64,000 nucleotides of DNA from Roseovarius sp. MMSF_3281 (GTDB lineage: Bacteria; Pseudomonadota; Alphaproteobacteria; Rhodobacterales; Rhodobacteraceae), in the NCBI RefSeq assembly GCF_030733685.1, contig NZ_JASHIM010000017.1, positions 1 to 64,000 of the forward strand, read 5' to 3'. The notes beneath the pieces are model-generated. The model searched no databases, was not told where the DNA came from, and saw nothing but the letters and a program-made list of their open reading frames with translations. This document shows, piece by piece, positions 38,502-64,000 of this stretch (positions are counted from its first letter, which is position 1; the number at the start of each line of letters is the position of its first letter). The position numbers and the translations under genes were made by a program.

Positions 38502-38538
38502 TTTGGTTCTCCTCCTCAAAACTGCACTTGATATACAT

Positions 38539-38554: not shown

Positions 38555-38594
38555 TTTTTGGAAAGAAGATTTTCGCTCACGGGGAGGAGCACCG

Positions 38595-40552: not shown

Positions 40553-40561
40553 GGACGAACC

Positions 40562-41749: not shown

Positions 41750-43141
41750 ATGCAATTTGGAATGCGCTTCCGGCGGGAAGATGCCGCCGACAAGGTAAAT
41801 GATCGCTTCTGGCACGCGATCGAGGGCACGCCGCTCGACGAGACGCGCCGTATCCAGGAAGAGCGGCTGCGCGATCAGATGGCCTATCTCAAGGCAAACT
41901 CGACTTTCTATCAGGAGAAGTTCGCGAAAGCCGGTGTGGAATTCGACGATATCCGAACCATCGAAGACCTCCAGAAACTGCCCTATACCTACAAGACCGA
42001 GATCCGCGAAAGCCTGGCCGCCGAACCGCCGTTCGGCAAACACCGCGCCGCGCCCATGTACGAGATCATCCAGATGCAGGCCTCGTCGGGCACGACCGGC
42101 AGCCCCTCATATGTGGCCCTGACCGAATCCGACGCCGAAATGTGGCACGAGATGACGGCGCGCTGTTTCTTTGCCAATGGCGTGCGGCCGGGCGACATGG
42201 TGCTGCACGCGTTTTCGCTCGCCAAGGGCTTTGTCGGCGGCATCCCCGTGATGCAGGGATTGCAGTACATGGGCACGATCGATGTGCCGGTGGGCGCCGA
42301 TGGCGGTGCGGAACGGCTGCTGCGCGCCTGCGCCGACACCCGTCCGCGTTGCGTGGTCGGCGCCCCGAACTTTGTGCTGCACCTGGCCGAAAAGGCTCCC
42401 GAGGTGCTGGGATGCAAGGCCAGCGAACTGGGTATCGAGCGCGTGATCGTCGGCGGCGAACCCGGCGGCGGCATTCCCGCAATTCGGGCAAAGATCGAAA
42501 AGGCCTGGGGTGCGAAATGCACCGAGATGCTGGGCGGCACCGATCTGGGCGTGACATACTGGGCCGAGTGCGACGCCCAGTCGGGTATGCACATGGTCAA
42601 CATGGATTATGTCCTGACCGAGCTGCTCGACCCGGAGAGCGGCAGGATCATTCCCTGGAAAAAAGGCGCAGAAGGCGAGATGGTCTATACCGCGCTCGGC
42701 CGCCAGGCGAGCCCACTCGTGCGGTTCCGGTCAGGCGATTATATCGAAGTGATCGATACCGAATGCTCCTGCGGCCGCACCGGACCCAAGATCCGTTGCA
42801 CCGGCCGCACCGACGACATGCTGATTGTGCGCGGGGCCAATGTCTTCCCGTCGGCCATCAACAGCATCATTACCGAAATGGTGCCGGACACCAACGGCGT
42901 CATGCGCATCGTGGCCGATTTCGAGGGCCACACCACGCAGGGCGCGCTGACGGTGATTGTCGAACGCGGCCCCAATCGCGATCCGGCCGACGACGTCACC
43001 CTCAAAAAGAAAATTGAGCAGCGGCTGCGCGACTCCTTGGTCTTCAAGGCCGACGTTCACCTGGTTGCGGCCGACACTTTCGAAAAACCTGGCGCCGCTA
43101 AGGTCGCCTTCGTTCTCAGGAAATATCCAGACCTGCCATGA
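41750..43141 (+). CDS. PaaK-like acyl-CoA ligase
   Basis: Adenylate-forming enzyme of 463 residues from the phenylacetate-CoA ligase family. The P-loop QMQASSGTTGSPSYVALTE, VIVGGEPGGGIPAIR, GGTDLGVTYWAEC, SPLVRFRSGDY and the CSCGRTGPKIRCTGRTDDM motif are all present; the C-terminal Lys (KPGAAKVAFV) follows. AACGGAG precedes the ATG. It likely activates an aromatic, alicyclic or dicarboxylic acid intermediate generated in this pathway, upstream of the third carboxylase. Confidence 0.88.
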   Translation: MQFGMRFRREDAADKVNDRFWHAIEGTPLDETRRIQEERLRDQMAYLKANSTFYQEKFAKAGVEFDDIRTIEDLQKLPYTYKTEIRESLAAEPPFGKHRAAPMYEIIQMQASSGTTGSPSYVALTESDAEMWHEMTARCFFANGVRPGDMVLHAFSLAKGFVGGIPVMQGLQYMGTIDVPVGADGGAERLLRACADTRPRCVVGAPNFVLHLAEKAPEVLGCKASELGIERVIVGGEPGGGIPAIRAKIEKAWGAKCTEMLGGTDLGVTYWAECDAQSGMHMVNMDYVLTELLDPESGRIIPWKKGAEGEMVYTALGRQASPLVRFRSGDYIEVIDTECSCGRTGPKIRCTGRTDDMLIVRGANVFPSAINSIITEMVPDTNGVMRIVADFEGHTTQGALTVIVERGPNRDPADDVTLKKKIEQRLRDSLVFKADVHLVAADTFEKPGAAKVAFVLRKYPDLP

Positions 43142-44745: not shown

Positions 44746-44755
44746 GGAGCGAACC

Positions 44756-46762
44756 GTGAAAATCAAAACGCTTCTGATCGCCAACCGCGGCGAAATTGCC
44801 TGCCGGATCGCGCGCACCGCGCGGGCCAGCGGTATCACCCCTGTCGGCGTGCATTCGCAGGCCGATGCCAATGCCCTGCATGTCCGCGAGATCGGCAAAT
44901 CTGTCTGTATCGGTGCCGGGCCTGCATCCGAGAGCTATCTGAAAATCGACGCGGTGATTGCCGCTGCGCAATCGGTGGGCGCGGATGCGATCCATCCCGG
45001 TTACGGCTTTCTGGCCGAAAACCCCGATTTTGCCCGCGCGGTCGAAGCCGCCGGCATGATCTTCATGGGGCCGACGCCGGAAACGCTTGAACGTTTCGGC
45101 GACAAGGCCAGCGCCAAAGAGGCCGCCGTGGCGGCCAGCGTCCCGGTGATTTCGGGCACCGAAGGTGCGCGGTCCGATCCCGAGCAGATTGCCGAGGAGG
45201 TGCGCCAAATGGGCCTGCCGGTGCTGCTCAAGGCTGTCGGCGGCGGTGGTGGGCGAGGGCAACGGCTCGTCACCGACGAAACCACGCTGGTCGAGGACAT
45301 CGAAGGCGCGCTGCGCGAAGCAAAATCCACCTTCGGCTCCGAAGGGCTGCTGTTGGAGCGTTTCCTGCCCGAGGCGCGCCATGTTGAAGTGCAGATCGCA
45401 GGTGACGGCAAGGGCCATGTGGTGCATCTGTTCGAACGCGATTGCACGCTTCAGCGCCGCCACCAGAAGGTCATCGAGGAAGCCCCGGCCTGGGGTCTGC
45501 CCCGGACGCTTATGGACGACATCGCGCGCGACGCGGTGCGCCTTGGTGAAACGCTGGACTATCGCGGTCTGGGCACGGTCGAATTTCTGGTCGCGGGGGA
45601 CGAGTATTTCTTCCTTGAGGTGAACCCGCGCATTCAGGTGGAACATCCCGTCACCGAAGCGATCACCGGGCTGGACCTTGTCGCGCTTCACCTGCGGATT
45701 GCCGAAGGCGCGGGCCTTGGACTGGTGCAGGACGATCTGACGATCAACGGCCACGCGGTCGAGGCGCGGCTTTACGCCGAAGATCCGGCGATGCAATTCG
45801 CTCCGTCGACGGGCACGCTCTCCACGCTCAGCCTGCCATCGGGCCTGCGCATCGACAGCGGCGTCGAGGAAGGCGATGCCGTCACGCCCTATTACGATCC
45901 GATGATCGCCAAGCTGATCGTGCACGCGCCCGACCGGGAAACCGCATTGGCACGTCTGGCCACGGCGCTTGATCATGTCGCGGTCGAAGGTGTCGAGACC
46001 AATCGCGCCTTTCTAACGGCGCTGGCGCGAAACCATGAATTCGAACGGATGCAGGTGCATACCCGCTGGATCGACGGCAGGCTGGATGAGCTGACACAAG
46101 CACCCGGACTGACCCGCCCCGATCTGTGGAAAGCGACCGCTGCCATTCTCTTCGTGACCCAGTCGCGCAGCGACACAAACGCCAATCCCTGGACCAACCG
46201 TGATGCCTTTACCGGCTGGCGGCTTGGCCTGGGCGGTGATGCGATTGAAGCGGGGCAGCGCGTGACGCTTACCGATTCTGACGAGGTATCCGAAGAACTG
46301 CGCATCGGCCCTGTCAAACCGGGCGCCAAGTACACCGTCCATTCGGAAAACGGCGAGGCGCTGACACTGTCGGCATGTGAACTGACCCCGGGCCGTTGGC
46401 GTGTCGGCGAAGGCGACACCGTCCATCTGATCGACGCGCGCCTGCACGCGGGCGTGATCGAACTGGACACGCCCGAAGGTCGCCTGGTCTTCCGCCCCGC
46501 CGCGCCCCTTGCTTTTGCCGGCGGCGATGCCGCGGCGGATCGCGCCGTGACCTCTCCGCTGACCGGAATGATTGTCGAAATCAAGGTCTCCGATGGTCAG
46601 AGCGTGGCCGAAGGCGAAGTGGTCGCGGTCATGGAATCCATGAAACTCGAAATCTCGATCCGGGCGGCCGCGGCCGGGATCGCCAGCAATATATCCGTCT
46701 CGAATGGAGACATGGTCGATCGTGGCCAAGTCATCGCCGAGATTCTGCCATCCGAGGAGTGA
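44756..46762 (+). CDS. Acyl-CoA carboxylase alpha subunit (biotin carboxylase-BCCP fusion)
   Basis: Fused biotin carboxylase/BCCP, 668 residues, GTG start after GAGGAG. LLIANRGEIACRIAR, HPGYGFLAENPDF, KAVGGGGGRGQRLV (ATP loop), EVNPRIQVEHPVTE, and the C-terminal VMESMKLEISI with the biotin-accepting Lys. Partner of the carboxyltransferase upstream. Followed 4 bp later by a HMG-CoA-lyase-like gene, so the carboxylated product may be hydrated elsewhere and then cleaved by that lyase. Confidence 0.92.
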   Translation: MKIKTLLIANRGEIACRIARTARASGITPVGVHSQADANALHVREIGKSVCIGAGPASESYLKIDAVIAAAQSVGADAIHPGYGFLAENPDFARAVEAAGMIFMGPTPETLERFGDKASAKEAAVAASVPVISGTEGARSDPEQIAEEVRQMGLPVLLKAVGGGGGRGQRLVTDETTLVEDIEGALREAKSTFGSEGLLLERFLPEARHVEVQIAGDGKGHVVHLFERDCTLQRRHQKVIEEAPAWGLPRTLMDDIARDAVRLGETLDYRGLGTVEFLVAGDEYFFLEVNPRIQVEHPVTEAITGLDLVALHLRIAEGAGLGLVQDDLTINGHAVEARLYAEDPAMQFAPSTGTLSTLSLPSGLRIDSGVEEGDAVTPYYDPMIAKLIVHAPDRETALARLATALDHVAVEGVETNRAFLTALARNHEFERMQVHTRWIDGRLDELTQAPGLTRPDLWKATAAILFVTQSRSDTNANPWTNRDAFTGWRLGLGGDAIEAGQRVTLTDSDEVSEELRIGPVKPGAKYTVHSENGEALTLSACELTPGRWRVGEGDTVHLIDARLHAGVIELDTPEGRLVFRPAAPLAFAGGDAAADRAVTSPLTGMIVEIKVSDGQSVAEGEVVAVMESMKLEISIRAAAAGIASNISVSNGDMVDRGQVIAEILPSEE

Positions 46763-46766
46763 TGAA

Positions 46767-47726
46767 ATGAGCGACTTTCCCAAATTCGTCGAGTTTCGCG
46801 AAGAAGGCCCGCGTGAGGGTTTTCAGATCGAAAAGAAGATTTATCCGATCGAAGAGCGGATCGAACTGATCGACATGCTCAGCGAAACCGGTCTGAAGCG
46901 CATTCAGGTTGGCAGTTTCGTCAGCCCGAAATACGTGCCGCAAATGGCCGACACCGGCGAGTTGTTCCAGCGTATCAAGCGCGAACCGGGCGTGAATTAC
47001 ACATCGCTGTGGCTGAACGACAAAGGGTTTCGCAAGGCCCTGACCGCGCATGAGGTCGATATCGACCCGCGTCTGCTGTTCTATCCCTCCGAGGCATTCG
47101 CCCAATCGAACAACAATTGTTCCTCGGCGGAGATGCGGGAAAAACAACGTGACTGGGTCCGTCTTTACAAGGAAGAAGGATATACGGTCGACGCGGCCTA
47201 TGTGATGACTGCCTTCGGCTGCAACCTCGAAGGCCCCATCCCCCAAGAACGCATCTTGGACGATTTCCGCTTCATTCTTCAGCTGTGCGAGGAAGAGGAC
47301 ATCCCCGTGCCGATCCTTGTGATCGCCGACACAATGGGCTGGGGAAACCCCGAGGCGGTCAAACGCATGATCGGCGCCCTGCGCGAATTGGCGCCCGAGG
47401 CGCGCATCGGTATGCACATCCATGACACACGTGGGCTGGGGATCGCCAACGTTTGTGCCGCCCTGTCGATGGGCGTGGACATGTTCGAAAGCTCGGTCGC
47501 CGGTCTTGGCGGCTGTCCTTTCGCGGGCCACGGCCACGCGCGCGCCGCCGGCAACGTCTGCACCGAGGATGCAGTGTTCCTGTGTCACGAACTGGGCATC
47601 GAAACCGGCATTGATCTGGACAAGCTGATCGCGGCGGCGCTCAAGGCCGAAGAAATCATCGGCGTGCCGCTGATGGGCCGGGTCATGCATACCGGCGGGT
47701 TGGACAAATACCGCAAGTCACGCTGA
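46767..47726 (+). CDS. HMG-CoA-lyase-like retro-aldol/Claisen enzyme
   Basis: TIM-barrel lyase of 319 residues from ATG 46767. The catalytic block FREEGPREGFQ corresponds to the canonical VGPRDGLQ, with Arg kept but the metal-ligand Asp changed to Glu. MHIHDTRGLGIAN gives the His-x-His ligands and SVAGLGGCPFAGHGHARAAGN the loop with catalytic Cys, here extended. In Atu/Liu pathways this enzyme cleaves 3-hydroxy-3-methylglutaryl- or 3-hydroxy-3-isohexenylglutaryl-CoA. The changes suggest a non-standard substrate. It is the only lyase of this family in the window and may serve all three carboxylases. Confidence 0.86.
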   Translation: MSDFPKFVEFREEGPREGFQIEKKIYPIEERIELIDMLSETGLKRIQVGSFVSPKYVPQMADTGELFQRIKREPGVNYTSLWLNDKGFRKALTAHEVDIDPRLLFYPSEAFAQSNNNCSSAEMREKQRDWVRLYKEEGYTVDAAYVMTAFGCNLEGPIPQERILDDFRFILQLCEEEDIPVPILVIADTMGWGNPEAVKRMIGALRELAPEARIGMHIHDTRGLGIANVCAALSMGVDMFESSVAGLGGCPFAGHGHARAAGNVCTEDAVFLCHELGIETGIDLDKLIAAALKAEEIIGVPLMGRVMHTGGLDKYRKSR

Positions 47727-53184: not shown

Positions 53185-54381
53185 TTAGCGGTCCTTTTGG
53201 TTGACGATCAGTTCTGCATTTTCGGGTAGTTCCGAAACAATGTTCACCTCGTCGGCACGAATTCGTGCATGCAGTTTGAAGGTCTCAGCGGCGGCGGCTT
53301 CCGCAGCAGAAGTATCGGCACCGTCTTCCAGCACAAGCGAGAGGCGGATCATATCGCGATCGTTCTCGCGCGTTACCACAGCCTGCGCGGCCTTCGCGCC
53401 CTGCGTGCCGATGACAACTTCTTCAACCACACGCGGATAAACGAAAATCTCGCGCACTTTGACCGCTGCGCCGACCCTGCCCTGCAGCGCTGAAATCCGG
53501 CTGACCGTGCCATCCACGTTGCTCTCCAGCGCCAAGGCACTGTCGCCGGTGCCGAACCGGATCATCGGCCAAGTGGCATCGCGCGCGGTCACAACAACCT
53601 CGCCCGGTTCCCCATGAGCGACCTGTTCTCCACTGACCGGATCGCATATCTGCACCACGCGGTCGGGATGAACCACATAGCCTTCGCCGCCATCCTCATA
53701 TGCGACAAGGCCCAGATCCGCGGTGGCATAGGCAGCCCAAGTCGACACGCCATAGTCTTCCTCGATCCGGCGGCGTTTGGCCATCCAGTCGCCCATCTCT
53801 CCGCCGAGGAAGGCTGTTTTCACCTTCCAGGCGTCGCGCCCATAGGTTTCGATCACCTTGTCCGCCAGCGTCAGGAAAAACGCAGTCGAAGCACAGATCG
53901 AAGTCACGCCGGTTTCGACGATGATCTGCGCCTGAAGCTCGGTATTGCCCACGCCGCCGGGAATCACCGTGGCACCTGCGGCCTGTGCCGCTTCGTCGAA
54001 CAGCAGGCCAGCCGGCACAAGATGATACATCCAGGTGTTCAGGATGATATCTCCGGGGCCCACGCCTGCCGCCTTGAACAGCAGGTCCAGGCCATGACCT
54101 CCCCCGCCCGAAAGGGCCGGCTCGAAAATTGGGCCAGGGGACACGTAGATCCGTCCAATATCCTTCAGATCCGAGGCAAGGAATCCGCCGAAAGGCGGGT
54201 TCTCGCGCTGGATCTTCAGAAGCTCTTCCTTCTTCATCACGGGAAGACGCGAGAGGTCCGCCACCGATGTGACGGCTGCCGGATCAAATCCGGCAGCCGC
54301 AAATCGCGATTTCAGGCCAGGAGCCTTATTGGCCGCAGCGGCATAGGCTTGCGCTATATCTTGGTAGATATCTTCAGACAT
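53185..54381 (-). CDS. PaaK-like protein with altered P-loop
   Basis: Phenylacetate-CoA-ligase-family protein, 398 residues. ATG 54381 is chosen because GAGGAGG is 7 nt ahead, too close to ATG 54387. LSRLPVMKKEELLKIQREN and the central TAFLGGEMGDW, ATADLGLVAYED, MIRFGTGDSALALE are family-like. However the SSGTTG P-loop seen in the ligase at 41750 is absent; the equivalent region reads YVSPGPIFEPALSGGG. It may be non-adenylating or belong to a divergent branch. Last gene of the minus-strand operon. Confidence 0.75.
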   Translation of the reverse strand: MSEDIYQDIAQAYAAAANKAPGLKSRFAAAGFDPAAVTSVADLSRLPVMKKEELLKIQRENPPFGGFLASDLKDIGRIYVSPGPIFEPALSGGGGHGLDLLFKAAGVGPGDIILNTWMYHLVPAGLLFDEAAQAAGATVIPGGVGNTELQAQIIVETGVTSICASTAFFLTLADKVIETYGRDAWKVKTAFLGGEMGDWMAKRRRIEEDYGVSTWAAYATADLGLVAYEDGGEGYVVHPDRVVQICDPVSGEQVAHGEPGEVVVTARDATWPMIRFGTGDSALALESNVDGTVSRISALQGRVGAAVKVREIFVYPRVVEEVVIGTQGAKAAQAVVTRENDRDMIRLSLVLEDGADTSAAEAAAAETFKLHARIRADEVNIVSELPENAELIVNQKDR

Positions 54382-54408
54382 TTCCATGCCTCCTCGTACA
54401 GTCAGGCG

Positions 54409-55218
54409 TTAGAGCGGGCAGTCCTTGCGGAAGTTTGGCGCGCGCTTCTCCCGGTGCGACAACACACCTTCCTTGACGTCCTCGCTCATGAAGCCAAGCA
54501 TCTCCAGCGCAGTCGACGCATCAAAGATCGGCCCGGCCTGGCGCAGCCAGTTATTCAGCGAATACTTGGTCCAGCGGATCGCGCTTTGCGAGCCGTTGGC
54601 CAGTTCGACGGCTGTATCCAGCGCGATCTGCTGCAGCTCGTCATCCTCGACGCACATTGATACCAGACCGATCCGCTCGGCCTCTTCGCCCGACACCGGC
54701 TTGCAGGTCATCAGATAGTATTTCGCCTTGGCCATCGAGGTCAGCAGCGGCCAGATAATCGCCGCGACGTCACCGGCGGCAACACCAAGGCGGGGATGAC
54801 CATCGACAATCTTGGCCCGTTTTCCGGCGATCGAGATGTCGGCCAGGATGGCAACCACAAGGCCCGCGCCCGCCGCGGGACCATTGATCGCGGAAATGAT
54901 CGGCTTGTTGCAGTTGATGATGTTGTAGACGAGATCCTTGGCTTCTTTCCACGTCTTCATGATCTCATGCGAATTGCCAATCATGTTTTCGATCAGGCTA
55001 AAATCACCACCGGCGGAAAACGCCTTGCCCGCACCGGTCACGATGACCGCGTTGATGTCGGGGTCGCGGTCGATGTCGATCCACATGTCCGTCATCTGGG
55101 TGTGGGTTTCGGCATCGACCGAGTTGAATGTCTCGGGCCGGTCGAACGTGATGCGCAGGACGCGATCCGCCGGGTAGTCAAATTTCAGTTTGTCGTACTT
55201 TGCGTAACGCTCCGACAT
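54409..55218 (-). CDS. Enoyl-CoA hydratase/isomerase
   Basis: Crotonase of 269 residues, ATG 55218 with AGGAGGAAAAGACCT upstream. GKAFSAGGDFSLIEN and NGPAAGAGLVVAILADI form the oxyanion hole, followed by HPRLGVAAGDVAAIIWP. The inhabitants of the crotonase active site (Glu pair) are not evident, with DGHPRLG at the first Glu position, so it may be an isomerase, hydrolase or C-C lyase rather than a hydratase. 20 bp after the PaaK-like stop. Confidence 0.8.
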   Translation of the reverse strand: MSERYAKYDKLKFDYPADRVLRITFDRPETFNSVDAETHTQMTDMWIDIDRDPDINAVIVTGAGKAFSAGGDFSLIENMIGNSHEIMKTWKEAKDLVYNIINCNKPIISAINGPAAGAGLVVAILADISIAGKRAKIVDGHPRLGVAAGDVAAIIWPLLTSMAKAKYYLMTCKPVSGEEAERIGLVSMCVEDDELQQIALDTAVELANGSQSAIRWTKYSLNNWLRQAGPIFDASTALEMLGFMSEDVKEGVLSHREKRAPNFRKDCPL

Positions 55219-55245
55219 AGGTCTTTTCCTCCTCACGGTATGGGT

Positions 55246-56397
55246 TCAGCCAGGCAGTCCCAGGACGGCCTTAGACAGGATGTTTCTTTGGATTTCGTTC
55301 GATCCACCGTAGATCGTGGTAGGTCTGGCCTTGTAGAAGCTCGACAAAACGTCGACGCTAACATTGCCAACCTGAAGCGGCCCGATGGAGCCGCCATCGG
55401 GACCGGCTGCTTCGATCATCAGCTCGGTGATGCGCTGGAAGCACTCAGTCACCCAGATCTTCAGCATGGACACATCCGCACCCAGCGTCTCGCCACGTTT
55501 GAGCTGATCTGCAAAACGGGCATAAAGCGCGGCATGATCTTCCACATCCAGTGCCGCCTGGGCAAAGCGGTCACGGAACACCGGATCGTCAAACGCGCCA
55601 CGGCCACGGGCAAAGCTTTCAAGCTGTCCCAGAGCGTTCTGGGCCAGACTTGGCGAACCGATGAAAATGCGTTCGAAGCTCAAGAGCGCCTTGGCCATCG
55701 TCCAACCCTTGTTCAGCTCGCCCACGAGGTTCTCGCGGGGCGTCCGTGCATTGTCAAAGAAGACCTCGCAAAACTCGGTCTCGCCCGACAGGGTCGTGAT
55801 AGTGCGCACATCGACTCCGGGCTGATCCATCGGAGCGAGCAGGAAACTGATACCCTGTTGTTTCTTGGGCGCATCCGGATCGGTGCGCACCAGCATGAAA
55901 ATATGCGTGGCGTCATGCGCCATCGTGGTCCAGATCTTCTGTCCGTTGATGACAAAGTCGTCCCCGTCAATCTCTGCGCGTGTGCGCAGGTTCGCCAGAT
56001 CGGACCCGGCGCCGGGTTCCGAGTATCCCTGGCACCAGATGTCTTCGCAACTCAGGATACGCGGCAGCCAGTAGTCTTTTTGTTCCTGGGTGCCGAATTT
56101 GATGATCAGGGGACCGACCATCTGCACGCCCATGTCGCGACCGCGATTGACGCCCCAGCGCTGCTGCTCTTCATAAAAGATCAGCAGCTTAGCAGCGTTT
56201 AGGCCCATACCGCCGAATTCAGCGGGCCAAGCTGGCGCAACCCAGCCCTTGGCGTGAAGCTTGCGGTGCCAATGTTCGATCTCGGCGAACTTCGGGCGGT
56301 GCGGCAGGTGACGCAGCTCCTCGGGATATTCCGCTTCGAAGAACTGGCGCACTTCTTTGCGGAATTCCGCATCGCTCATTGCATTCCAGTCGGTCAT
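55246..56397 (-). CDS. Acyl-CoA dehydrogenase, catalytic-type subunit of an ACAD pair
   Basis: ACAD of 383 residues; ATG 56397 overlaps the upstream ACAD stop by ATGA. YSEPGAGSDLANLRT (FAD), a Glu in LLSFERIFIG, and the C-terminal RPTTIYGGSNEIQRNIL. Adjacent complementary ACAD genes resemble the alpha2beta2 enzymes of steroid side-chain breakdown (FadE26-27, FadE28-29), where one chain carries the base. By that logic this is the catalytic chain. Confidence 0.86.
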   Translation of the reverse strand: MTDWNAMSDAEFRKEVRQFFEAEYPEELRHLPHRPKFAEIEHWHRKLHAKGWVAPAWPAEFGGMGLNAAKLLIFYEEQQRWGVNRGRDMGVQMVGPLIIKFGTQEQKDYWLPRILSCEDIWCQGYSEPGAGSDLANLRTRAEIDGDDFVINGQKIWTTMAHDATHIFMLVRTDPDAPKKQQGISFLLAPMDQPGVDVRTITTLSGETEFCEVFFDNARTPRENLVGELNKGWTMAKALLSFERIFIGSPSLAQNALGQLESFARGRGAFDDPVFRDRFAQAALDVEDHAALYARFADQLKRGETLGADVSMLKIWVTECFQRITELMIEAAGPDGGSIGPLQVGNVSVDVLSSFYKARPTTIYGGSNEIQRNILSKAVLGLPG

Positions 56398-57518
56398 TGT
56401 GCTGCCCCCTCTGCTTCGCGTGCCTCGAACCAAATCCGCCTGTGATAGGCATCGTCGCCCAACCAGGCCGACAGCACCAGCGCCCGGTTCAGGTAGAGCC
56501 CGATATCGAACTCATCCGTGTACCCGACCGCCCCGTGCAACTGGATCGCATCACGGGTAATTCTTTTGGCGGCCGTAACCGCCCGCGCCTTGGCACGGCT
56601 GGCAATCGGGGCCCGAACCTTCGGATCGGTTTCGCTGTCCATCTGCGCAAGCGCCTCCCGCACTCCGGCCTGCGCGACCTCGCACATCACGTTGAGGTCG
56701 ACGGCACGGTGCTGGATGACCTGAAAAGACCCGATCGGCTTGTCGAACTGCTCCCGCGTCTTGATGTAGTCTAGCGTGATCTCGAAGGCACGCTCGCTCA
56801 GGCCGACAAGCTCGGCCGCAGCAAGCGCCGTTGCATCGGCGACAGCCTCGGCCAGTGCAGTGGGAACCGCACCGCCGCTGGCCAATTCCGCGGCCGGGGT
56901 TCCCGAAAACGAAAGCTCGCCCAGAGAGCTGCCGTCGGCCTGCGCTCGTTTGTCAATGACAAGCCCGTCCGCGTCTGCCTCGGTCAGAACCAGAACCGGG
57001 CCGTCATCTCCTTCAGCCACGACCAGGAACCCTAGAGATCCGGTCGCGCCGACGACCCAAGCCTTGCTTCCGGTCAGCCGCCCGTCCGTGTATCGGCAGG
57101 CCGCATCGGCAGGCGCCCCGCCCAGGCCACGTTCCTGCCAGGCAACCGCCAGTGAAATTTCGCCGCCGATAAGTTGCGCCATCTTCGGATGATCCGGACA
57201 AAGGCGGCGCAGAAGACCGAGGCTTAGACCGATCGTCGACACGACCGGTTCCGGTGCAATCACACGGCCGACTTCCTCGGCGATGACACCCCCGGCAGCT
57301 AGGCCCATGCCAAGCCCGCCCTGATCTTCGGGCACCGCCACGCCGAAAACACCGGCCTCGGCGAGTTCCCGGACCATCTCCGCATCGAAACCGCCCCCGG
57401 CATCACGAAGTTTTCGGGCTCTGTCACTTCCGCCCGCCCGTTCAAACAACGTGCGCGCGCTCTCGCGCAACAGGCGAAGGTCTTCTTGTTCGCTGGAAAG
57501 GATATCAGTCTGTGTCAT
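56394..57518 (-). CDS. Acyl-CoA dehydrogenase, partner subunit of an ACAD pair
   Basis: ACAD-fold protein of 374 residues. VAVPEDQGGLGMGL, LTGSKAWVVGATGSLGF, TREQFDKPIGSFQVIQH and LHGAVGYTDEFDIGLYLNR are family blocks. The FAD loop (ITEPGxGS) and the C-terminal EGT region are not recognisable, and its sequence resembles the FadE27/29-type non-base chain. It overlaps the MaoC gene by 14 bp and its partner by 4 bp. Confidence 0.85.
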   Translation of the reverse strand: MTQTDILSSEQEDLRLLRESARTLFERAGGSDRARKLRDAGGGFDAEMVRELAEAGVFGVAVPEDQGGLGMGLAAGGVIAEEVGRVIAPEPVVSTIGLSLGLLRRLCPDHPKMAQLIGGEISLAVAWQERGLGGAPADAACRYTDGRLTGSKAWVVGATGSLGFLVVAEGDDGPVLVLTEADADGLVIDKRAQADGSSLGELSFSGTPAAELASGGAVPTALAEAVADATALAAAELVGLSERAFEITLDYIKTREQFDKPIGSFQVIQHRAVDLNVMCEVAQAGVREALAQMDSETDPKVRAPIASRAKARAVTAAKRITRDAIQLHGAVGYTDEFDIGLYLNRALVLSAWLGDDAYHRRIWFEAREAEGAAQ

Positions 57519-57954
57519 TTTGTTTTCGCTGGATCATCACGGGGGTGTCGGTCGAAAAAACGACCTCGCCCGCAGGGTTTTTGGCGCTGAGCGTATAGTG
57601 CAAAACACCTCTGTCGGGCTTGCTTTTTGACGGCGTGACCGCGTTGACCGTCAGTTCGACATCAAGGGGTTCGTTCGGGCGCACCGGCCGCAGCCAGCGC
57701 AGATTGTCAAAGCCCATGCCACCGATATTGGCGACATCGACCATCATTTCAGACATGACCGGCCTGAACACTTCCAGCATCGTCTGAAAGCCCGAGGCGA
57801 TCAGGCTGCCATGTATGGCGGTTGCATAGTCTTCGTCGGTGTGCAGCCGCTGCGGATCCCATTCCTTGGCAAACGACTTTATTGAATCCGCGCTCATCGG
57901 AGCGCTGCGAAAGCGATAGACTTGGCCCGGCGAGAAGTCTTCCAGATACCTCAA
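57505..57954 (-). CDS. MaoC-family hydratase
   Basis: Single-hotdog enoyl-CoA hydratase of 149 residues. The hydratase-2 motif is KEWDPQRLHTDEDYATAIHGSLIASG (residues about 30-55), with Asp and His in place. Overlaps the transglutaminase-like gene by ATGA and the ACAD by 14 bp, so the three are coupled. In steroid side-chain pathways a MaoC-type hydratase forms the tertiary alcohol that Ltp/DUF35 then cleaves. Confidence 0.86.
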   Translation of the reverse strand: MRYLEDFSPGQVYRFRSAPMSADSIKSFAKEWDPQRLHTDEDYATAIHGSLIASGFQTMLEVFRPVMSEMMVDVANIGGMGFDNLRWLRPVRPNEPLDVELTVNAVTPSKSKPDRGVLHYTLSAKNPAGEVVFSTDTPVMIQRKQNDTD

Positions 57955-58670
57955 GAGGCACCCTCCTTTGCGAAACCGTCATCATATCCGCTCGCATCCT
58001 TGGATATCCGGATGCGGTTGAATTCTTCCAGCTTCGGATAGGTTTCCTTGAACGCCAACAGGAACTCACCCATCGGCGCGTCGAAATAGATACCACGGTC
58101 GTTCACATATTCCATGTGCCGGTGATTCTGTTCGTCGAACTCATGAAAGAGCGCGTCGTTATAGCCGTCGAAGACCAGGGGTTTGACCCCAAATCTTTCA
58201 CACAGTTCCATGTTGAATGCAGGTGTCACCTTGTAGGCCTCATTCCCCAACCACAACTGAACATAGCCGTGGTAGATAAAGAGATCGGTCCCCATCAACT
58301 CCTGCAACTTGGGTGTATTCAGGTGGTTGCGCACATCCGCGAACCCCAGAGCGGCGGGGATACCCACAGCACGCAAACAAGCCGCCAGAAGAATTGCCTT
58401 GGGAACGCAAAACGCCGCTTCCGCCCCAGCGATACGGCTGGCACGGTAAGAGTCCTCATCCAGCGCAAAACAATAGGGATCATAGCGAATATCGTCGCGC
58501 ACCGCTTCGAACAGGCGGATCGCCTTGTCTCGATTGGTTGCGTCCACAGGAAGATCACGCAAAGCCGATGTCACGAAACCCTGCACTTCCAAGCTATCGC
58601 TTTCCACAAAGCGCGATGGCATGACATAACGCTCAGCTTCAGTCGGCAGGTCATCGTCAGACTTGTCCAT
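57951..58670 (-). CDS. Transglutaminase-like cysteine-protease-family protein
   Basis: Protein of 239 residues with a transglutaminase-like core. The Cys segment is EAAFCVPKAILLAACLRAVG (near residue 88) and the His segment is YHGYVQLWLGNEAYKVTPAFN; the usual third Asp after the His is replaced by the TPAFN type found in a subclass. No signal peptide. Role in an acyl-CoA operon is unclear; it is first in the second part of the minus operon, just after an operator. The CxW-type triad suggests a hydrolase or acyltransferase. Confidence 0.75.
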   Translation of the reverse strand: MDKSDDDLPTEAERYVMPSRFVESDSLEVQGFVTSALRDLPVDATNRDKAIRLFEAVRDDIRYDPYCFALDEDSYRASRIAGAEAAFCVPKAILLAACLRAVGIPAALGFADVRNHLNTPKLQELMGTDLFIYHGYVQLWLGNEAYKVTPAFNMELCERFGVKPLVFDGYNDALFHEFDEQNHRHMEYVNDRGIYFDAPMGEFLLAFKETYPKLEEFNRIRISKDASGYDDGFAKEGAS

Positions 58671-58733: not shown

Positions 58734-59870
58734 TTACTCTGTCTTTGGTTGATCCACGCCATAACGCGTATTGTCTTCGCCCAGAGTGGCTGCGACTCCG
58801 ACCGAATTTCCCGAAGAACGGAACTCCGGCGCAATTGGCAGCGGCAAAGCAGGCGCGTCCCGGCCGGAGATTTTTACTGTCCGCCCGAACACGTCACGCG
58901 CTTTGAAATGCGGGTCGCGCGCCGCCTCGGCGGGCGTTTTCACGACCGAACAGCAGCAATCTGCCGCTGCCAGCAAAGGCTCCCAATGGGTCGAGGGGTG
59001 TTCCCTCAGACGACGTGCAACCTCTGCGGCGCAGGCATTGGGATCGGACCAGTCATCGCGAAGGGCCACCGGCAAACCAATAACATCGCAGAACGACTGC
59101 CAGAACTTTTCTTCCAACGCGCCGACGGCGATCTGACGCCCGTCCGCAGCCGAATAAAGCCGATATCGGGCCAGGCCACCCGTCAGACGGCTGCCACCGC
59201 TTTCGATGTTCTGCCCGGCAATCACACCTTCGGCATGGGCCCAATAGGCAAAGGCGAACGCCCCCTCGGCCATTGCGATATCCAGATGCGTTCCCTGCCC
59301 GCTTGCCTGCCGCGCAATCAGGGCCAGCAGGATATTCATCACCGCAGGATAGGTTCCGCCTCCGATATCGGCGACCAGCCCGAACGGGGCCGTTGGCTGG
59401 TCATCCGGTCCACGACTGAGCGACAGGATACCCGCATCACCGACGTAGTTGAGGTCGTGGCCGGCGGCGCTGGCCTTTGGTCCGGTCTGGCCATAGCCGG
59501 TGATCGAACAATAGATGAGACCGGGATTGATCTTGCGCACCGCTTCATAACCAAGCCCCAACCGGTCCATCACGCCGGGACGGAACTGCTCGACCAGAAC
59601 ATCGGCCCTCTCGATCAAAGGGCGCAGACGTTCCACTGCGCCCCTTGACTTGAGGTCGATGGCCACCGATCGCTTGCCGTGGTTCAACACGGCAAATCCG
59701 ATGCTCTCTCCGTCGATCTTGGGCTCGGTTTGGCGCGCGTCCTCGCCGACTCCGGGACGCTCGAACTTGATCACTTCGGCGCCGACCTCGGACAACATGA
59801 GCGTCGCCATCGGACCGGGAAGAAGTGTGCTGAAATCCAGCACCAGGATATCCTTGAGCGGTTGAGCCAT
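58734..59870 (-). CDS. Alpha-methylacyl-CoA racemase / type III CoA-transferase
   Basis: Protein of 378 residues from the CaiB/BaiF family. ATG 59870 with GAGGCAGTGAAG ahead. LPGPMATLMLSEVGAEVIKFER, CSITGYGQTGPKA and AGHDLNYVGDAGIL (the GHDxNY block conserved in AMACR) argue for a 2-methylacyl-CoA racemase, which epimerises branched chains so that a stereospecific ACAD can act. CoA-transferase activity is the alternative. It precedes an internal operator. Confidence 0.83.
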   Translation of the reverse strand: MAQPLKDILVLDFSTLLPGPMATLMLSEVGAEVIKFERPGVGEDARQTEPKIDGESIGFAVLNHGKRSVAIDLKSRGAVERLRPLIERADVLVEQFRPGVMDRLGLGYEAVRKINPGLIYCSITGYGQTGPKASAAGHDLNYVGDAGILSLSRGPDDQPTAPFGLVADIGGGTYPAVMNILLALIARQASGQGTHLDIAMAEGAFAFAYWAHAEGVIAGQNIESGGSRLTGGLARYRLYSAADGRQIAVGALEEKFWQSFCDVIGLPVALRDDWSDPNACAAEVARRLREHPSTHWEPLLAAADCCCSVVKTPAEAARDPHFKARDVFGRTVKISGRDAPALPLPIAPEFRSSGNSVGVAATLGEDNTRYGVDQPKTE

Positions 59871-59880
59871 CTTCACTGCC

Positions 59881-60738
59881 TCAGGCGAAGCGCGCCGCGC
59901 CGTTGTTCAGAACAACCACGTCGCGTGCCGGAATAGATGCTCGAAACCGGGCCTCGCCGTCCTCTTCCCAGATTTCGAACCGCACGGTTTCGCCGGGATA
60001 GACCGGCGCCGAGAACCGAACATCCAGACCGACAAGCCGGGCAGAATCATAGTCCAGCAACGTCTTGAGAATCGCCCGGGCCGCCAGCCCATAGGTCGCC
60101 AGACCATGCAGGATCGGGCGGTCGAACCCGACAGAACGGGCAACATCCGGGTCAGCATGAAGCGGATTGAAATCACCGCTGAGACGATAAATAAGGGCTT
60201 GGCGCGGCAGGGTATTGATATCACATACATGATCAGGCGCCCGATCAGGCAGCACTGCGGGTGCCGGACCCGCCTGGTTTTCACCGCCGAACCCCCCATC
60301 ACCGCGACAGAAAGCCGACATCGCCACGCGCGCCAGTTTTTCGCCGCTGTCCGCGTCGATAATATCGCGGCTTTGGTAAATGACGGCTCCCTTGCCCTCG
60401 CCCTTGTCGGCGATAAAGTCGATCTTGCTGCGGCCGACAATTCGGCCATGTGTCGGCAGCGGCTTGTAGATGTCGAGCCACTGTTCTCCGTGCAGCACTT
60501 TCTGCCAGTTCACGCCGGTTTTCGGATTGCGCAGCCAGAAGCCCGGATACCCCAGGGTAACGGCCATAGAGGGAACCGCCTTCAGACCGTCCTCATAGAC
60601 AAAGGCCAGTTCTTTCTTGTCTGTCGGATCTTCGCCGAACCCCAGCCCGAGTGCGTAAAGGATGGTATCCCGCTCGGTCAGAGTCTGCTTGATCTCTTCG
60701 AAATCCCAATTCGAAAGTGCTTCGAAATCCAGTGGCAT
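59881..60738 (-). CDS. MaoC-type 2-enoyl-CoA hydratase (double hotdog)
   Basis: Hydratase of 285 residues similar to the hydratase domain of MFE-2. The N-terminal hotdog begins RDTILYALGLGFGEDP; the C-terminal hotdog has YRLSGDFNPLHADPDVARS followed by GFDRPILHGLATYG, the intact hydratase-2 motif. GGGAGGAAAGATC precedes the ATG. It would make (3R)-hydroxyacyl-CoA, matching the MFE-2-like dehydrogenase at 47739. 10 bp before the racemase. Confidence 0.88.
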   Translation of the reverse strand: MPLDFEALSNWDFEEIKQTLTERDTILYALGLGFGEDPTDKKELAFVYEDGLKAVPSMAVTLGYPGFWLRNPKTGVNWQKVLHGEQWLDIYKPLPTHGRIVGRSKIDFIADKGEGKGAVIYQSRDIIDADSGEKLARVAMSAFCRGDGGFGGENQAGPAPAVLPDRAPDHVCDINTLPRQALIYRLSGDFNPLHADPDVARSVGFDRPILHGLATYGLAARAILKTLLDYDSARLVGLDVRFSAPVYPGETVRFEIWEEDGEARFRASIPARDVVVLNNGAARFA

Positions 60739-60761: not shown

Positions 60762-61913
60762 TCAGAGCGTGTTTCGTGACCCCAGTATTGCCGTGACCTG
60801 GCTGGACAGCACACCGCCATTGCCATGCGCCAGCGCCAGATCAATATCCTTCAACTGAATGCCCGGCGCGTCGCCACGGATCTGACGGGCAGCCTCGATC
60901 ACTGTGAAGATGCCGTACATCCCGGGGTGCACGCAGGACAGGCCGCCGCCATTCGTGTTCACCGGCAACACGCCGCCAGGCGCGATGCGTCCGCCCTCGA
61001 CAAAGGCCCCTCCCTCGCCCTTCGCGCAGAACCCAAGATCTTCGAGAAACAAAATCGTGTTGATGGTGAAGGCATCATAGAGCTCGACCGCCTGGATATC
61101 CGCAGGGGTCACTCCGGCCGCCGCAAAGGCGCGCGCGCCCGAGTCGCGGGCCGCGGTCACGGTGAAATCCTTCATCTGGGAAATCTGCCGGTGCGAGCTT
61201 GCCGCAGCACTGCCCAGCACATAGACAGGTGCCTTCGGGAAATCCCGGGCGCGGTCCGCGCGGACCATTACGATCGCGCCGCCACCGTCGGTGACAAGAC
61301 AACAGTCGCGCACGGTCAATGGATCGCCCACCATGCGCGAACCCAACACGTCCTCGCGGGTCAGCGGGCCGCGCTCGAACGCTTCGGGGTTGCGCTGCGC
61401 CCAGGCCCGCGCGGCAACGGCCACGTCGGCCAGCTGTTCGCGGGTGGTACCATATTCATGCATGTGCCGCGCCGCCGCCATCGCATAGGCCGAGATCGGA
61501 TAGCGCGGATTATACGGCGCCTCGTAGGCCGGCGGACGTGAAGCGGTCACCAGTCTGCCCGACGCGGTGCGCTGGTTGGAGCCATAAACAATCAGCGCGA
61601 CATCACACAGACCGGCGTCCAGCGCCATGGTCGCGGACGTCAGGTAGTTTACGAAGGACGAACCGCCCGACATCGTGCCATCAATGAAACGGGGCTGGAT
61701 GCCCAGATACTCCGCCGCCATAAGCGCCGGCATGCTGTCTTCCATCATGGTGCAAAACAGCCCGTCGACGTCGGACAGTTTCAGCCCGGCATCGCCAAGC
61801 GCCGCAAGCGCAGATTGCGCCATGACATCATAGGCCGTCAGGCCATGGGCTTCTCCGAAACCGGCATGACCGGTTCCCACGATGGCGGATTTCCCCCGAA
61901 GTTCAGTGGTCAT
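60762..61913 (-). CDS. Thiolase-fold Ltp-like protein lacking the nucleophilic Cys
   Basis: SCP2-thiolase-family protein of 383 residues. At the position of the acyl-accepting Cys (NNNCSTGSS in the protein at 11305) it reads GTMSGGSSFVNYL, so Cys is absent. The later NTNGGGLSCVHPGMYG keeps the His. Ltp2-type retro-aldolases also lack it and need a DUF35 partner, whose gene (61917) lies 3 bp upstream. It therefore probably cleaves a tertiary 3-hydroxyacyl-CoA by retro-aldol reaction, not by thiolysis. Confidence 0.84.
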   Translation of the reverse strand: MTTELRGKSAIVGTGHAGFGEAHGLTAYDVMAQSALAALGDAGLKLSDVDGLFCTMMEDSMPALMAAEYLGIQPRFIDGTMSGGSSFVNYLTSATMALDAGLCDVALIVYGSNQRTASGRLVTASRPPAYEAPYNPRYPISAYAMAAARHMHEYGTTREQLADVAVAARAWAQRNPEAFERGPLTREDVLGSRMVGDPLTVRDCCLVTDGGGAIVMVRADRARDFPKAPVYVLGSAAASSHRQISQMKDFTVTAARDSGARAFAAAGVTPADIQAVELYDAFTINTILFLEDLGFCAKGEGGAFVEGGRIAPGGVLPVNTNGGGLSCVHPGMYGIFTVIEAARQIRGDAPGIQLKDIDLALAHGNGGVLSSQVTAILGSRNTL

Positions 61914-61916
61914 GGC

Positions 61917-62294
61917 CTATCCCTCCGACGGTTTGAAAAGCACGGCCGGAACACCCTCGGCCTCGCCCACGAATGCGGTTACAGGCATGTCGATGACGAC
62001 CTCACCCGGGGCAATGCCCTCGACCCGGCTCATCATCCGGACACCCTCGTCCAGCTCGACGACGCATACGTTGTAGTCGCCGCCCCGTTCGGGCTTTCGG
62101 CGCACGACTGTTGTGGTGTGGACCCGTCCCTTGCCGCCGGCCTGCTTCCACGAAATCGCGGTGCCATGACAATGTGGACACAGGACTCGCGGGAAAAAGT
62201 GATAGGCCCCGCAGTCGTCGCACTTGGGCAGCAGGATCTCTCCCTCTGCCAGCGCGCGTTGGAAAAGCTGGTCTGGTCCTTTGGCATCCTGCAT
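61917..62294 (-). CDS. DUF35 Zn-ribbon/OB-fold partner protein
   Basis: Stand-alone DUF35 protein of 125 residues. An N-terminal helix (GPDQLFQRALAEGE) leads to a rubredoxin-like Zn ribbon CDDCGAYHFFPRVLCPHCHG (four Cys) and an OB-fold (VHTTTVVRR ... NVCVVELDEGVRMMSRVEG). In steroid degradation the DUF35 domain of ChsH2 activates the Ltp2 aldolase. The adjacency here (first gene of the operon, 3 bp before the Ltp-like gene) supports such a pair. Confidence 0.86.
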   Translation of the reverse strand: MQDAKGPDQLFQRALAEGEILLPKCDDCGAYHFFPRVLCPHCHGTAISWKQAGGKGRVHTTTVVRRKPERGGDYNVCVVELDEGVRMMSRVEGIAPGEVVIDMPVTAFVGEAEGVPAVLFKPSEG

Positions 62295-62398: not shown

Positions 62399-63544
62399 AT
62401 GTCAGGTTCAGACTTAGCCCCCCTTTCCGGCAAACTCGTCGTTGCGTTGGAACAGGCAGTCGCCGCGCCTTTTTGCTCCTCGCGGCTGGCCGACGCCGGC
62501 GCGCGCGTGATCAAGATCGAACGCAAGGGCGCAGGCGATTTCGCCCGCGCCTACGATACCGCCGCCAACGGTGAAAGCGCCTATTTCACATGGCTGAACC
62601 GAGGCAAAGAATCGGTCGCCTTGGACATTAAAGCCGACGAAGACCGTGAAATCCTGCTCAGGATGCTGGAAAACGCAGATGTGTTTATTCAAAACCTGCT
62701 GCCGGGCGCGCTGGCCAAGCTCGGGCTCGATTCCGCGACTCTGCGAGAGAGCTTCCCGCGTCTCGTGACCTGCGACATCACCGGATATGGCGAAGACGGC
62801 CCGATGCGTGACGCCAAGGCCTATGACCTTCTGGTGCAATGCGAGAGCGGTCTGGCATCAGTGACCGGTACACCCGACGGACCAGGACGGGTGGGCGTGT
62901 CGGTCTGCGATATCGCCACCGGTATGACAGCCCATGCTGGAATCTGCGAAGCACTTGTCGGGCGTGATCGCACCGGCAAGGGCAGCGGCGTTTCCGTGGC
63001 AATGTTTGATGTGATGGCCGACTGGATGTCGGTTCCGCTGCTGTATCACGATTACCTTGGCAAGCCGACACCTCGTGTCGGACTGAACCACACGGTCATC
63101 TGCCCGTACGGGGCCTATGAATGCAAGGACGGTCAGCTTGTCGTCATTACCGTTCAGCACAGCGGCGAATGGCAACGGTTCTGTGAACACATACTGGGCG
63201 ATGCGGCTTTGGCAACCGACCCCCGGTTCCATGACAACACGTCGCGAATTGAAAACAAACCCGCGCTCGAAGTTCTCATCAAGGCCGTGTTCGCCTCGCA
63301 TGACCGCGCCGAGATGCTGAAGCGGCTTGACGCTGCGGGCATTGCGTCTGGCGCGGTGAACGATGTGGCGACCCTGTCCGATCACCCCCAGCTCGACCGG
63401 TCCGTGATTGCCACGCCGTCCGGTGAAATCAACGTCCCGTCACCCCCGATCCGTCGCAGCCTCGGTGAAACGGCACTGGGTGCCTGCCCGGCCTTCGATG
63501 CGCAAGGCAAAGCCCTTCGCGCTGAGTTCGGCCGTCGTTCATAA
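62399..63544 (+). CDS. Type III CoA-transferase (CaiB/BaiF family)
   Basis: Family III CoA-transferase of 381 residues. GAGAGAAA precedes the ATG. SRLADAGARVIKIERKGAGDFARAY, CDITGYGEDGPM, and AYDLLVQCESGLASVTGTP with the conserved Asp (KAYDLLVQ) that forms the acyl-anhydride. Its neighbour 33 bp downstream is another family III chain, so the two may form a heteromer. It could activate the growth substrate by transferring CoA from a pathway thioester. Confidence 0.85.
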   Translation: MSGSDLAPLSGKLVVALEQAVAAPFCSSRLADAGARVIKIERKGAGDFARAYDTAANGESAYFTWLNRGKESVALDIKADEDREILLRMLENADVFIQNLLPGALAKLGLDSATLRESFPRLVTCDITGYGEDGPMRDAKAYDLLVQCESGLASVTGTPDGPGRVGVSVCDIATGMTAHAGICEALVGRDRTGKGSGVSVAMFDVMADWMSVPLLYHDYLGKPTPRVGLNHTVICPYGAYECKDGQLVVITVQHSGEWQRFCEHILGDAALATDPRFHDNTSRIENKPALEVLIKAVFASHDRAEMLKRLDAAGIASGAVNDVATLSDHPQLDRSVIATPSGEINVPSPPIRRSLGETALGACPAFDAQGKALRAEFGRRS

Positions 63545-63577
63545 AAACGGTGGGCAACTAAAAGGGTGGACAACCAA

Positions 63578-64000
63578 ATGGCCGCTGAGAACAAACCGGG
63601 GATCCTTCAAGGCGTGAAGATCGTCGATCTGACTTCTGTGGTTTTCGGACCTTTGGCGACGCAGATGCTGGGCGATCTGGGGGCCGATGTGATCAAGGTC
63701 GAAGGCCCCGAGGGCGATCTTCTTCGCCAGGTCCAGCCATCGCGCAACAAGCTGATGGGTGCCGCTTTTCTGGGGGCCAACCGTAACAAGCGCAGTGTCG
63801 TACTCGACCTCAAAACGCAAACCGGTCGCGATCAGTTGCGCAAGTTGCTCATCGATGCCGATGTGATGATTTCGAGCATCCGGCCTGCGGCGCTGGCCAG
63901 ATTGTCTTTGGATCCCGAAACCCTACGCCAGGAAAACCCGAACCTGATCACGGTATCCGCCACCGGTTTCGGGCAGGACGGGCCCTATGCCGCCAAGCCT
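63578..64000 (+). CDS. Type III CoA-transferase, 3' end outside window
   Basis: Partial gene from ATG 63578, 141 codons to the window edge without a stop. IVDLTSVVFGPLATQMLGDL, ADVIKVEGPEGDL and SATGFGQDGPYAAKP are family III landmarks. Separate from the preceding chain by 33 bp and likely co-transcribed. The catalytic Asp region lies beyond the edge. Confidence 0.82.
   Translation, partial: MAAENKPGILQGVKIVDLTSVVFGPLATQMLGDLGADVIKVEGPEGDLLRQVQPSRNKLMGAAFLGANRNKRSVVLDLKTQTGRDQLRKLLIDADVMISSIRPAALARLSLDPETLRQENPNLITVSATGFGQDGPYAAKP

Follow-up and report, generated by a model that had tools for sequence, protein, structure and literature searches.

A predicted DUF35-partnered retro-aldolase without the thiolase cysteine, from the PRK06158 clade, in Roseovarius sp. 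MMSF_3281

Introduction

Three lineages of thiolase-fold aldolases with a DUF35 partner have been published, namely the steroid aldolase TcLtp2–ChsH2 (PDB 6ok1), the bile-acid aldolase CtSal–CtShy (9myr) and the ibuprofen retro-aldolase IpfD/IpfE of plasmid pIBU218. Here, we describe two neighbouring minus-strand genes, separated by 3 bases, at positions 60762–62294 of contig NZ_JASHIM010000017.1 of Roseovarius sp. MMSF_3281 (GCF_030733685.1; genome of 4.3 Mb, completeness 99.97%). The genes code for a thiolase-fold protein that lacks the thiolase cysteine and for a DUF35 protein. The whole stretch of DNA that was analysed, positions 1–64,000 of the contig, is referred to as the window. We propose, with a probability of roughly 0.55, that the two proteins constitute a retro-aldolase complex whose likely substrates are 3-methyl-branched, terpenoid-type acids of a plasmid-borne pathway. 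Of these elements, the retro-aldol reaction is likely, whereas the substrate is guessed and complex formation is proposed from gene adjacency.

TcLtp2 uses Tyr294 and Tyr344, while CtSal uses Tyr302 and Cys304; according to the same study, activity of the CtSal variants C304A, C304S and C304H was undetectable or not restored (PMC12329534). The DUF35 domain of CtShy, which belongs to the MaoC protein Shy, has a Cys3His1 zinc site (PMC12329534 and PMC11321319). The ipfDE product is called both a retro-aldolase step and a thiolase in PMC9195938; the gene at 63639–64826 of pIBU218 was taken as ipfD from its neighbours. Since IpfD/IpfE was published earlier, the Roseovarius protein is not the first non-steroid case. 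For limonene breakdown, PMC12583861 proposes that LrcC likewise cuts at a tertiary 3-hydroxy carbon, but LrcC belongs to another family, that of 3-hydroxy-3-methylglutaryl-CoA (HMG-CoA) synthase, by its authors' description.

Active-site residues

The alignment comprised 103 sequences, 23 named rows and 80 relatives. The named rows are 17 Cys-less sequences, including the Roseovarius protein, and six Cys thiolases, of which four are PDB chains and two are paralogs encoded in the Roseovarius genome. The relatives are the best 80 of at least 582 confirmed ones. All show at least 60% identity, so that agreement among them is partly a matter of kinship.

The motif GTMSGGSS, which the original prediction had placed where thiolases carry their cysteine, was indeed found there. 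It spans residues 79–86, and the nucleophile cysteine of the six thiolases aligns on Gly84. This column holds Gly in 17/17 named Cys-less rows and Cys in 6/6 thiolases, and Gly83-Gly84 is invariant in 80/80 relatives. A cysteine elsewhere in the chain that occupies the nucleophile position had been named as counter-evidence; in the alignment, none of the six cysteines of the protein (54, 103, 204, 205, 296 and 327) falls in that column. Gly84 at this position excludes, on sequence grounds, thiolysis by the usual nucleophile.

Inspection of the aldolase-site tyrosines, as the original prediction had suggested, recovered the first but not the second. In each of the 97 Cys-less rows, 80 relatives and 17 named ones, Tyr (Tyr279) stands in place of the His of the thiolase HDxF motif, which is kept in 6/6 thiolases. 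The column of TcLtp2 Tyr344, however, is occupied by His329. The sequence His329-Pro-Gly-Met-Tyr is invariant in 80/80 relatives. His329 is present in 7/7 named rows of the clade to which the Roseovarius protein belongs (see below) and equals the His of the thiolase HPG motif, which is kept in all six thiolases. The other ten named Cys-less rows feature Tyr (7), Gln (2) or His (1) in this column. At the position of CtSal Cys304, the protein has Ala281, and Ala is found in 80/80 relatives. Most simply, the clade would have retained the thiolase His while losing the Cys, and would use Tyr279 and His329 as an acid-base pair.

Compared to TcLtp2–ChsH2, the pair shares the thiolase fold, the Gly at the nucleophile column, the Tyr of YDxF and a four-Cys DUF35 partner. 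It differs in that TcLtp2 has YDHF and Tyr344, whereas the Roseovarius protein has YDAF and His329. With CtSal it shares 36% identity and the same Gly and Tyr, but CtSal features YDCY with the essential Cys304 and Gln352 in place of YDAF, Ala281 and His329. Unlike the DUF35 domain of CtShy, the partner has four cysteines and is encoded by a gene separate from that of the MaoC protein. IpfD is similar in being non-steroid, plasmid-borne and adjoined by DUF35, and also has the YDAF motif; however, its identity to the Roseovarius protein is 38%, it forms its own clade and it carries Tyr at the His329 column.

Phylogenetic position and fold

Comparison with NCBIfam models yielded 645 bits for PRK06158 (NF004811), which is above the cut-off of 421, and 248 bits for PRK07855, which is below the cut-off of 469. 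PRK07855 is passed by an Ltp2-like protein of pIBU218 (583 bits) that groups with TcLtp2 in the tree, from which we infer that it is the Ltp2 model.

All 23 named sequences and 20 relatives out of the 80 entered the tree, giving 43 rows. The tree separates 37 Cys-less rows from the six Cys thiolases at 100/100, with CtSal, TcLtp2 and IpfD all on the Cys-less side. The Roseovarius protein falls within a 27-row clade (100/98) together with PDB entry 4u4e and relatives from Azospirillum, Delftia, Nonomuraea and others. TcLtp2, IpfD and CtSal are located outside this clade, and the tree gives no resolution of the branching order among these lineages. CtSal groups with another sequence (L142) and not with the Roseovarius protein, and Gly84 and Tyr279 stand where an SCP2-type thiolase has its nucleophile Cys and its HDxF His. 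As judged from models, tree and residues, the protein is not Ltp2, not Sal and not IpfD, but belongs to a separate clade, PRK06158/4u4e. The designation as Ltp2-type in the original prediction thus does not hold: the PRK07855 cut-off is missed, the protein branches apart from Ltp2, Sal and IpfD, and it has neither the Tyr344 of TcLtp2 nor the Cys304 of CtSal as a second catalytic residue. As far as the sequence says, it would nevertheless work like the steroid aldolases.

Members of the clade with a name of their own are the Sphaerobacter 'putative thiolase' 4u4e and the PRK06158 'acetyl-CoA acetyltransferase' subfamily. They share YDSF or YDAF plus HPG with the Roseovarius protein; the annotated names imply a thiolase, but the residues do not support this.

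The best solved relatives in a PDB sequence search were 4u4e, which is uncharacterised, and the two steroid aldolases. The AlphaFold2 (AF2) model of the protein (predicted local distance difference test, pLDDT, 85) matched the same three folds, with 9myr at the top (Z 48.7), followed by 4u4e (Z 47.3) and 6ok1 (Z 46.8).

Two further pairs were observed on other plasmids. The plasmid of Sulfitobacter sp. SK025 (L084) carries, just downstream of its cassette, a second, different pair of aldolase and DUF35 genes (29645–31182, minus strand), accompanied by TAXI-TRAP transporter and acyl-CoA dehydrogenase (ACAD) genes and with the same Gly/Tyr/Ala/His residues. On pIBU218 (L132), the PRK07855-passing protein is encoded besides IpfD at 10939–12503 (minus strand), with its own DUF35, crotonase and CoA-transferase genes between IS6100 copies.

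Genome search for steroid-ring genes

The original prediction had noted that no steroid-ring genes were visible, and this was extended to the genome. A search with FAD_binding_2 gave 41 matches, three of which cover at least 350 of the 414 profile positions. Two of these three pass a model, as succinate dehydrogenase and as TcuA; the third is FrdA/NadB-like and passes none. A further frame with two partial matches is a choline dehydrogenase. No KstD was found in the genome by this search, in which the three near-full-length proteins were scanned and the other partial matches left unscanned. Of the four Rieske matches, two pass the model of the respiratory Rieske protein and a third resembles GbcA (513 bits, cut-off 670). 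The fourth (398 amino acids) shows weak similarity to several ring oxygenases, with no more than 112 bits, and was left unassigned. None of the four was recognised as KshA, with the presence of a KshA model in the library unchecked. The glyoxalase search yielded 13 matches; no steroid extradiol dioxygenase (HsaC-like) was recognised among the two longest frames, which matched no NCBIfam model at 1e-10, and LigB-type and other steroid genes were not searched. These searches argue against a 9,10-seco steroid pathway in the genome.

A genuine aldolase of steroid side chains, working in a strain that shortens these and leaves the rings intact, would fit the gene types, which are those of steroid side-chain operons, and the fact that the two steroid aldolases are the closest characterised relatives among solved structures. 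Given the results for KstD, KshA and HsaC, the separate clade and the FadD at contig position 74908, which scores 99 bits with the steroid-24-oyl-CoA synthetase model (cut-off 750), we regard this as very improbable. Less probable still is an IpfD-like enzyme freeing propionyl-CoA from 2-arylpropionyl-CoA dihydrodiols. PRK06158 is the best NCBIfam model of IpfD (287 bits, below the cut-off) and an AMACR-like gene is present, but IpfD acts after a ring dioxygenase, and none of the four Rieske matches is on the window's contig. The different clade of IpfD and its Tyr at the His329 column also speak against this function.

Gene cassette and its distribution

The genes of the cassette are listed in Table 1. 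The claimed DUF35 Zn-ribbon gene beside the thiolase-fold gene was confirmed by its zf-ChsH2 and OB_ChsH2_C domains, and Pfam and NCBIfam matches identified the claimed MaoC hydratase and ACAD pair. The AMACR-like racemase was also correctly recognised: AMACR structures are its top PDB sequence matches (196 bits versus 175 bits for the best formyl-CoA transferase), and His126 and Asp156 of 1x74, which we take to be the catalytic residues, are identical in the alignment.

The order of the ten consecutive genes at 53185–62294 and of the two divergent CoA-transferase genes is kept in other Alphaproteobacteria, so the cassette is not a chance arrangement. By scripted count, at least 76 of the 80 relatives have a same-strand DUF35 gene no farther than about 1.2 kb from the aldolase gene, and two of the four loci without a scripted match (L036 and L039) show one just upstream. 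Among the 53 loci with both flanks, 42 have a MaoC-like gene and 47 a gene like the large ACAD subunit. The profiles behind the DUF35, MaoC and ACAD counts were seeded on window genes and measure resemblance, not curated membership.

Near-identical cassettes, mostly with 91–99% identity per protein, occur in Thalassococcus, Shimia, Primorskyibacter and Pseudooceanicola, and a cassette with 61–93% in Enterovirga. Thalassococcus halodurans DSM 26915 carries a relative at 99% identity. Plasmid-borne relatives of the aldolase with at least 94% identity were found, among others, in Roseovarius, Sulfitobacter, Marinovum, Phaeobacter, Roseibium and Paracoccus. In Frigidibacter, transposase genes flank the cassette, and the plasmid that carries it was typed as conjugative. 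Within the family of the strain, a copy with at least 94% identity is present in 4 of 149 genomes, its own included, and any match at 1e-100 in 16 of 149. In the Roseovarius genome itself, the thiolase-like family counts only three members at 1e-8.

The transglutaminase-like protein of the cassette shares 47% identity with its counterpart in the Rhodoferax clusters G001 and G002. Cys88 and His134 are invariant in eight sequences, while Thr149 occupies the position of the usual Asp of the triad. No convincing PDB relative was obtained (eight kinase-domain rows at E values of 0.16–0.92), and the predicted model is poor (pLDDT 57).

Linked genes and plasmid setting

ParA-, ParB- and RepC-family genes are found at 90–94 kb of the contig (103,940 bases), which is therefore very likely a plasmid. 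Beyond the right end of the window, the cluster extends as far as about 81 kb. This part comprises two ACADs, an electron-transfer flavoprotein (ETF) pair, crotonases, a FadD-like ligase together with a Liv-type ABC transporter, a short-chain dehydrogenase/reductase (SDR) and a CoA-transferase; the ETF and CoA-transferase calls were made by eye and from annotated counterparts in related loci.

Within the window, AtuA (acyclic terpene utilisation; 17061–18860, minus strand, 482 bits) adjoins a carboxylase set at 13466–17048 (minus strand). The three carboxyltransferases of the window score 571–600 bits against the methylcrotonyl-CoA carboxylase chains 3u9r and 8j4z, 419–430 bits against geranyl-CoA carboxylase and at most 288 bits against most propionyl-CoA carboxylases. 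In Rhodoferax-type loci (L033, L034 and L038), the best matches to genes that are dispersed across the window stand together in a single cluster, which contains FadH-like, several ACAD, crotonase, aldolase and DUF35, SDR, MaoC and Liv/FadD genes. In G001 and G002, the best matches of many linked genes are continuous with the aldolase cluster. Ahead of this cluster lie a gene of the HMG-CoA-lyase family, two carboxylase sets accompanied by ACAD and crotonase genes, a transglutaminase-like gene and two thioesterase-like genes.

A citryl-CoA-lyase-like gene of the citrate synthase family (48638–49447, plus strand) lies beside an ACAD gene (49451–50614, plus strand), of which 71–78% identical counterparts occur within 10 kb of the aldolase in 9/80 loci. 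Two identical DDE transposase genes (30615–31235 and 51579–52199, both minus strand; 621/621 bases) flank the 36–51 kb part of the region, and an IS110-type gene is located at 33415–34437. Near a transposase gene, the plus-strand frame 52640–53113 codes for a 157-amino-acid piece that matches positions 182–326 only of the nitronate monooxygenase family and is probably a broken gene. The AMP-binding ligase at 34918–35877 (minus strand), near the IS110-type gene, matches only the second half of its domain (from position 200 of 384) and is probably truncated.

Table 1. Features of the aldolase cassette and of the linked pathway (window positions unless stated otherwise)
Feature	Position	Strand	Basis
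Cys-less thiolase-fold protein, predicted retro-aldolase, PRK06158 subfamily, 383 aa; Gly84, Tyr279, His329	60762..61913	-	Pfam Thiolase_C_1 227 bits; NCBIfam PRK06158 645 bits; PDB 4u4e, 9myr, 6ok1
DUF35 (ChsH2-type) Zn-ribbon/OB-fold partner, 125 aa, CxxC...CxxC (C25, C28, C39, C42)	61917..62294	-	Pfam zf-ChsH2, OB_ChsH2_C; PDB 6ok1_B, 9myr_B; Cys from translation
Two-domain MaoC (hydratase-2 type) enoyl-CoA hydratase	59881..60738	-	Pfam MFE-2_hydrat-2_N, MaoC_dehydratas
AMACR-like family III CoA protein (2-methylacyl-CoA epimerase type)	58734..59876	-	Best PDB AMACR 8rmw/1x74, 196 bits
Transglutaminase-like protein	57951..58670	-	Pfam Transglut_core
Transglutaminase-like counterpart in locus L143	2074-2799 (of L143)	-	
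Single-domain MaoC hydratase	57505..57954	-	Pfam MaoC_dehydratas
ACAD small subunit (PimD/IpdE2-like)	56394..57518	-	NCBIfam pimD_small 144 bits, IpdE2 132 bits, both below cut-off
ACAD large subunit (PimC-like)	55246..56433	-	NCBIfam pimC_large 307 bits, below cut-off
Crotonase, PRK07327 subfamily	54409..55236	-	422 bits, cut-off 292
PaaK-like acyl-CoA ligase relative	53185..54387	-	NCBIfam PaaK models 107-123 bits, far below cut-off; no Pfam family
Family III CoA-transferase, divergent from aldolase operon	62399..63544	+	Pfam CoA_transf_3 351 bits
Second divergent family III CoA-transferase	63566..64000 (gene end at contig position 64744)	+	
HMG-CoA-lyase family protein of linked pathway	46704..47726	+	PRK05692 264 bits, cut-off 246
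Methylcrotonyl-CoA-carboxylase-type carboxyltransferase and biotin carboxylase	43138..46762	+	
FadH/old yellow enzyme (OYE)-like reductase (-); cyclohexanecarboxyl-CoA-dehydrogenase-like ACAD, crotonase, ACAD (+); linked pathway	36468..41722	mixed	
AtuA and third methylcrotonyl-CoA-carboxylase-type set	13466..18860	-	AtuA 482 bits
ACAD, biotin carboxylase, crotonase, methylcrotonyl-CoA-carboxylase-type carboxyltransferase (Liu/Atu-like set)	4070..9704	-	

Proposed mechanism and its evaluation

A 3-methyl branch blocks beta-oxidation, and hydration leads to a tertiary alcohol that is not oxidisable, for which a retro-aldol cut is a chemically simple way on. In the proposed pathway, the AMACR-like protein would set the configuration of the branched acyl-CoA, which the two-subunit ACAD would dehydrogenate before hydration by MaoC, with the two-domain MaoC as the putative source of the 3-hydroxyacyl-CoA. 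The complex would then cleave this 3-hydroxyacyl-CoA, tertiary or alpha-branched, to yield a shorter acyl-CoA together with a ketone or an aldehyde. Tyr279 would take the proton of the 3-hydroxy group, and His329, derived from the thiolase ancestor, would protonate the enolate in place of TcLtp2 Tyr344 or CtSal Cys304. The pathway would also hold AtuA, methylcrotonyl-CoA-carboxylase-type enzymes, the HMG-CoA-lyase family protein and Liv/FadD uptake.

Several observations weigh against this proposal. Regarding catalysis, the equivalence of His329 and Tyr344 comes from an alignment with a gap nearby, and a sequence outside the clade (L138) also has His in this column. The AF2 loop 325–328 beside His329 has a pLDDT below 50, which limits what the model says about the geometry of Tyr279 and His329. 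As the C304A variant of CtSal is inactive and Ala occupies that column here, the acid of the Roseovarius protein must be another residue. The Cys thiolase 6esq (Z 46.4) and TbSLP (Z 46.3) tie with 6ok1 in the fold comparison; fold alone therefore does not settle the chemistry. Finally, no tested activity for any member of the PRK06158 clade was found in the open-licence literature searched.

This last point would also suit a Cys-less thiolase-fold protein with other chemistry, such as decarboxylation, acyl transfer via another Cys or a structural role. TbSLP, a relative without the Cys residues of SCP2 thiolase, shows very weak malonyl-CoA decarboxylation according to PMC12329534, and Cys327, two residues ahead of His329, is conserved in 77/80 relatives. 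Cys327 was considered as a substitute nucleophile and judged unlikely because Tyr, Ser or Asn takes its place in distant named rows of the clade; it also does not align with the thiolase Cys. Together with the Gly84/Tyr279 signature common to the aldolases and the hydratase and DUF35 context, this makes other chemistry unlikely in our view, if clearly less so than a steroid function.

Regarding the substrate, the terpenoid type is a guess based on neighbour genes. The carboxylase entries 4q0g (AccD1) and 9tps (propionyl-CoA) score as high as the methylcrotonyl-CoA carboxylases (537–628 bits), and methylcrotonyl-type carboxylases and HMG-CoA lyase also serve leucine breakdown. No counterpart of AtuA and the third carboxylase set was seen in the Rhodoferax stretches G001 and G002, and in Frigidibacter the core cassette occurs without linked pathway genes in the 41 kb seen. 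The ACAD encoded at 38547 reaches 524 bits with the cyclohexanecarboxyl-CoA dehydrogenase model (cut-off 575), by which the substrate may be alicyclic.

The same retro-aldol chemistry on a cyclohexane- or naphthenic-type acid, instead of an open-chain terpenoid acid, would further agree with the PimC/PimD-like ACAD pair and with the FadH-like and 2,4-dienoyl-CoA-reductase-like genes, which score below cut-off. In the limonene pathway, PMC12583861 proposes a tertiary 3-hydroxyglutaryl-CoA that is cut after ring opening by the HMG-CoA-synthase-family enzyme. However, BadI and BadH models are absent among the matches listed for the scanned crotonases and SDRs, and neither AtuA nor the methylcrotonyl-type carboxylases need a ring. 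An alicyclic substrate is thus rather unlikely, although somewhat less so than other chemistry. The earlier suggestion of a branched or alicyclic acid was a fair guess, of which the first half is favoured: with AtuA and the methylcrotonyl-type carboxylases, the neighbourhood leans to a branched, terpenoid-type substrate.

Implications for the PRK06158 clade

Taken together, we tentatively suggest, as a possibility that we hold to be less than even, that the PRK06158/4u4e clade represents a third catalytic type of DUF35-partnered retro-aldolase (Tyr/His as opposed to Tyr/Tyr or Tyr/Cys). Its marine version, spread on plasmids among marine Alphaproteobacteria, would cut the carbon skeleton and so bypass or complement the carboxylase and HMG-CoA-lyase route for 3-methyl-branched terpenoid acids.

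The PRK06158 subfamily is large, with at least 582 relatives, and its thiolase or acetyltransferase name is contradicted by the residues in the 80 that were checked. If the clade is a Tyr/His retro-aldolase family, this annotation should change. If true, the proposal would also allow the cleavage of beta-branched carbon skeletons outside steroid metabolism to be tested directly, such skeletons being a block to normal beta-oxidation, and would account for part of a terpenoid-type pathway common to marine plasmids and Rhodoferax-type Betaproteobacteria.

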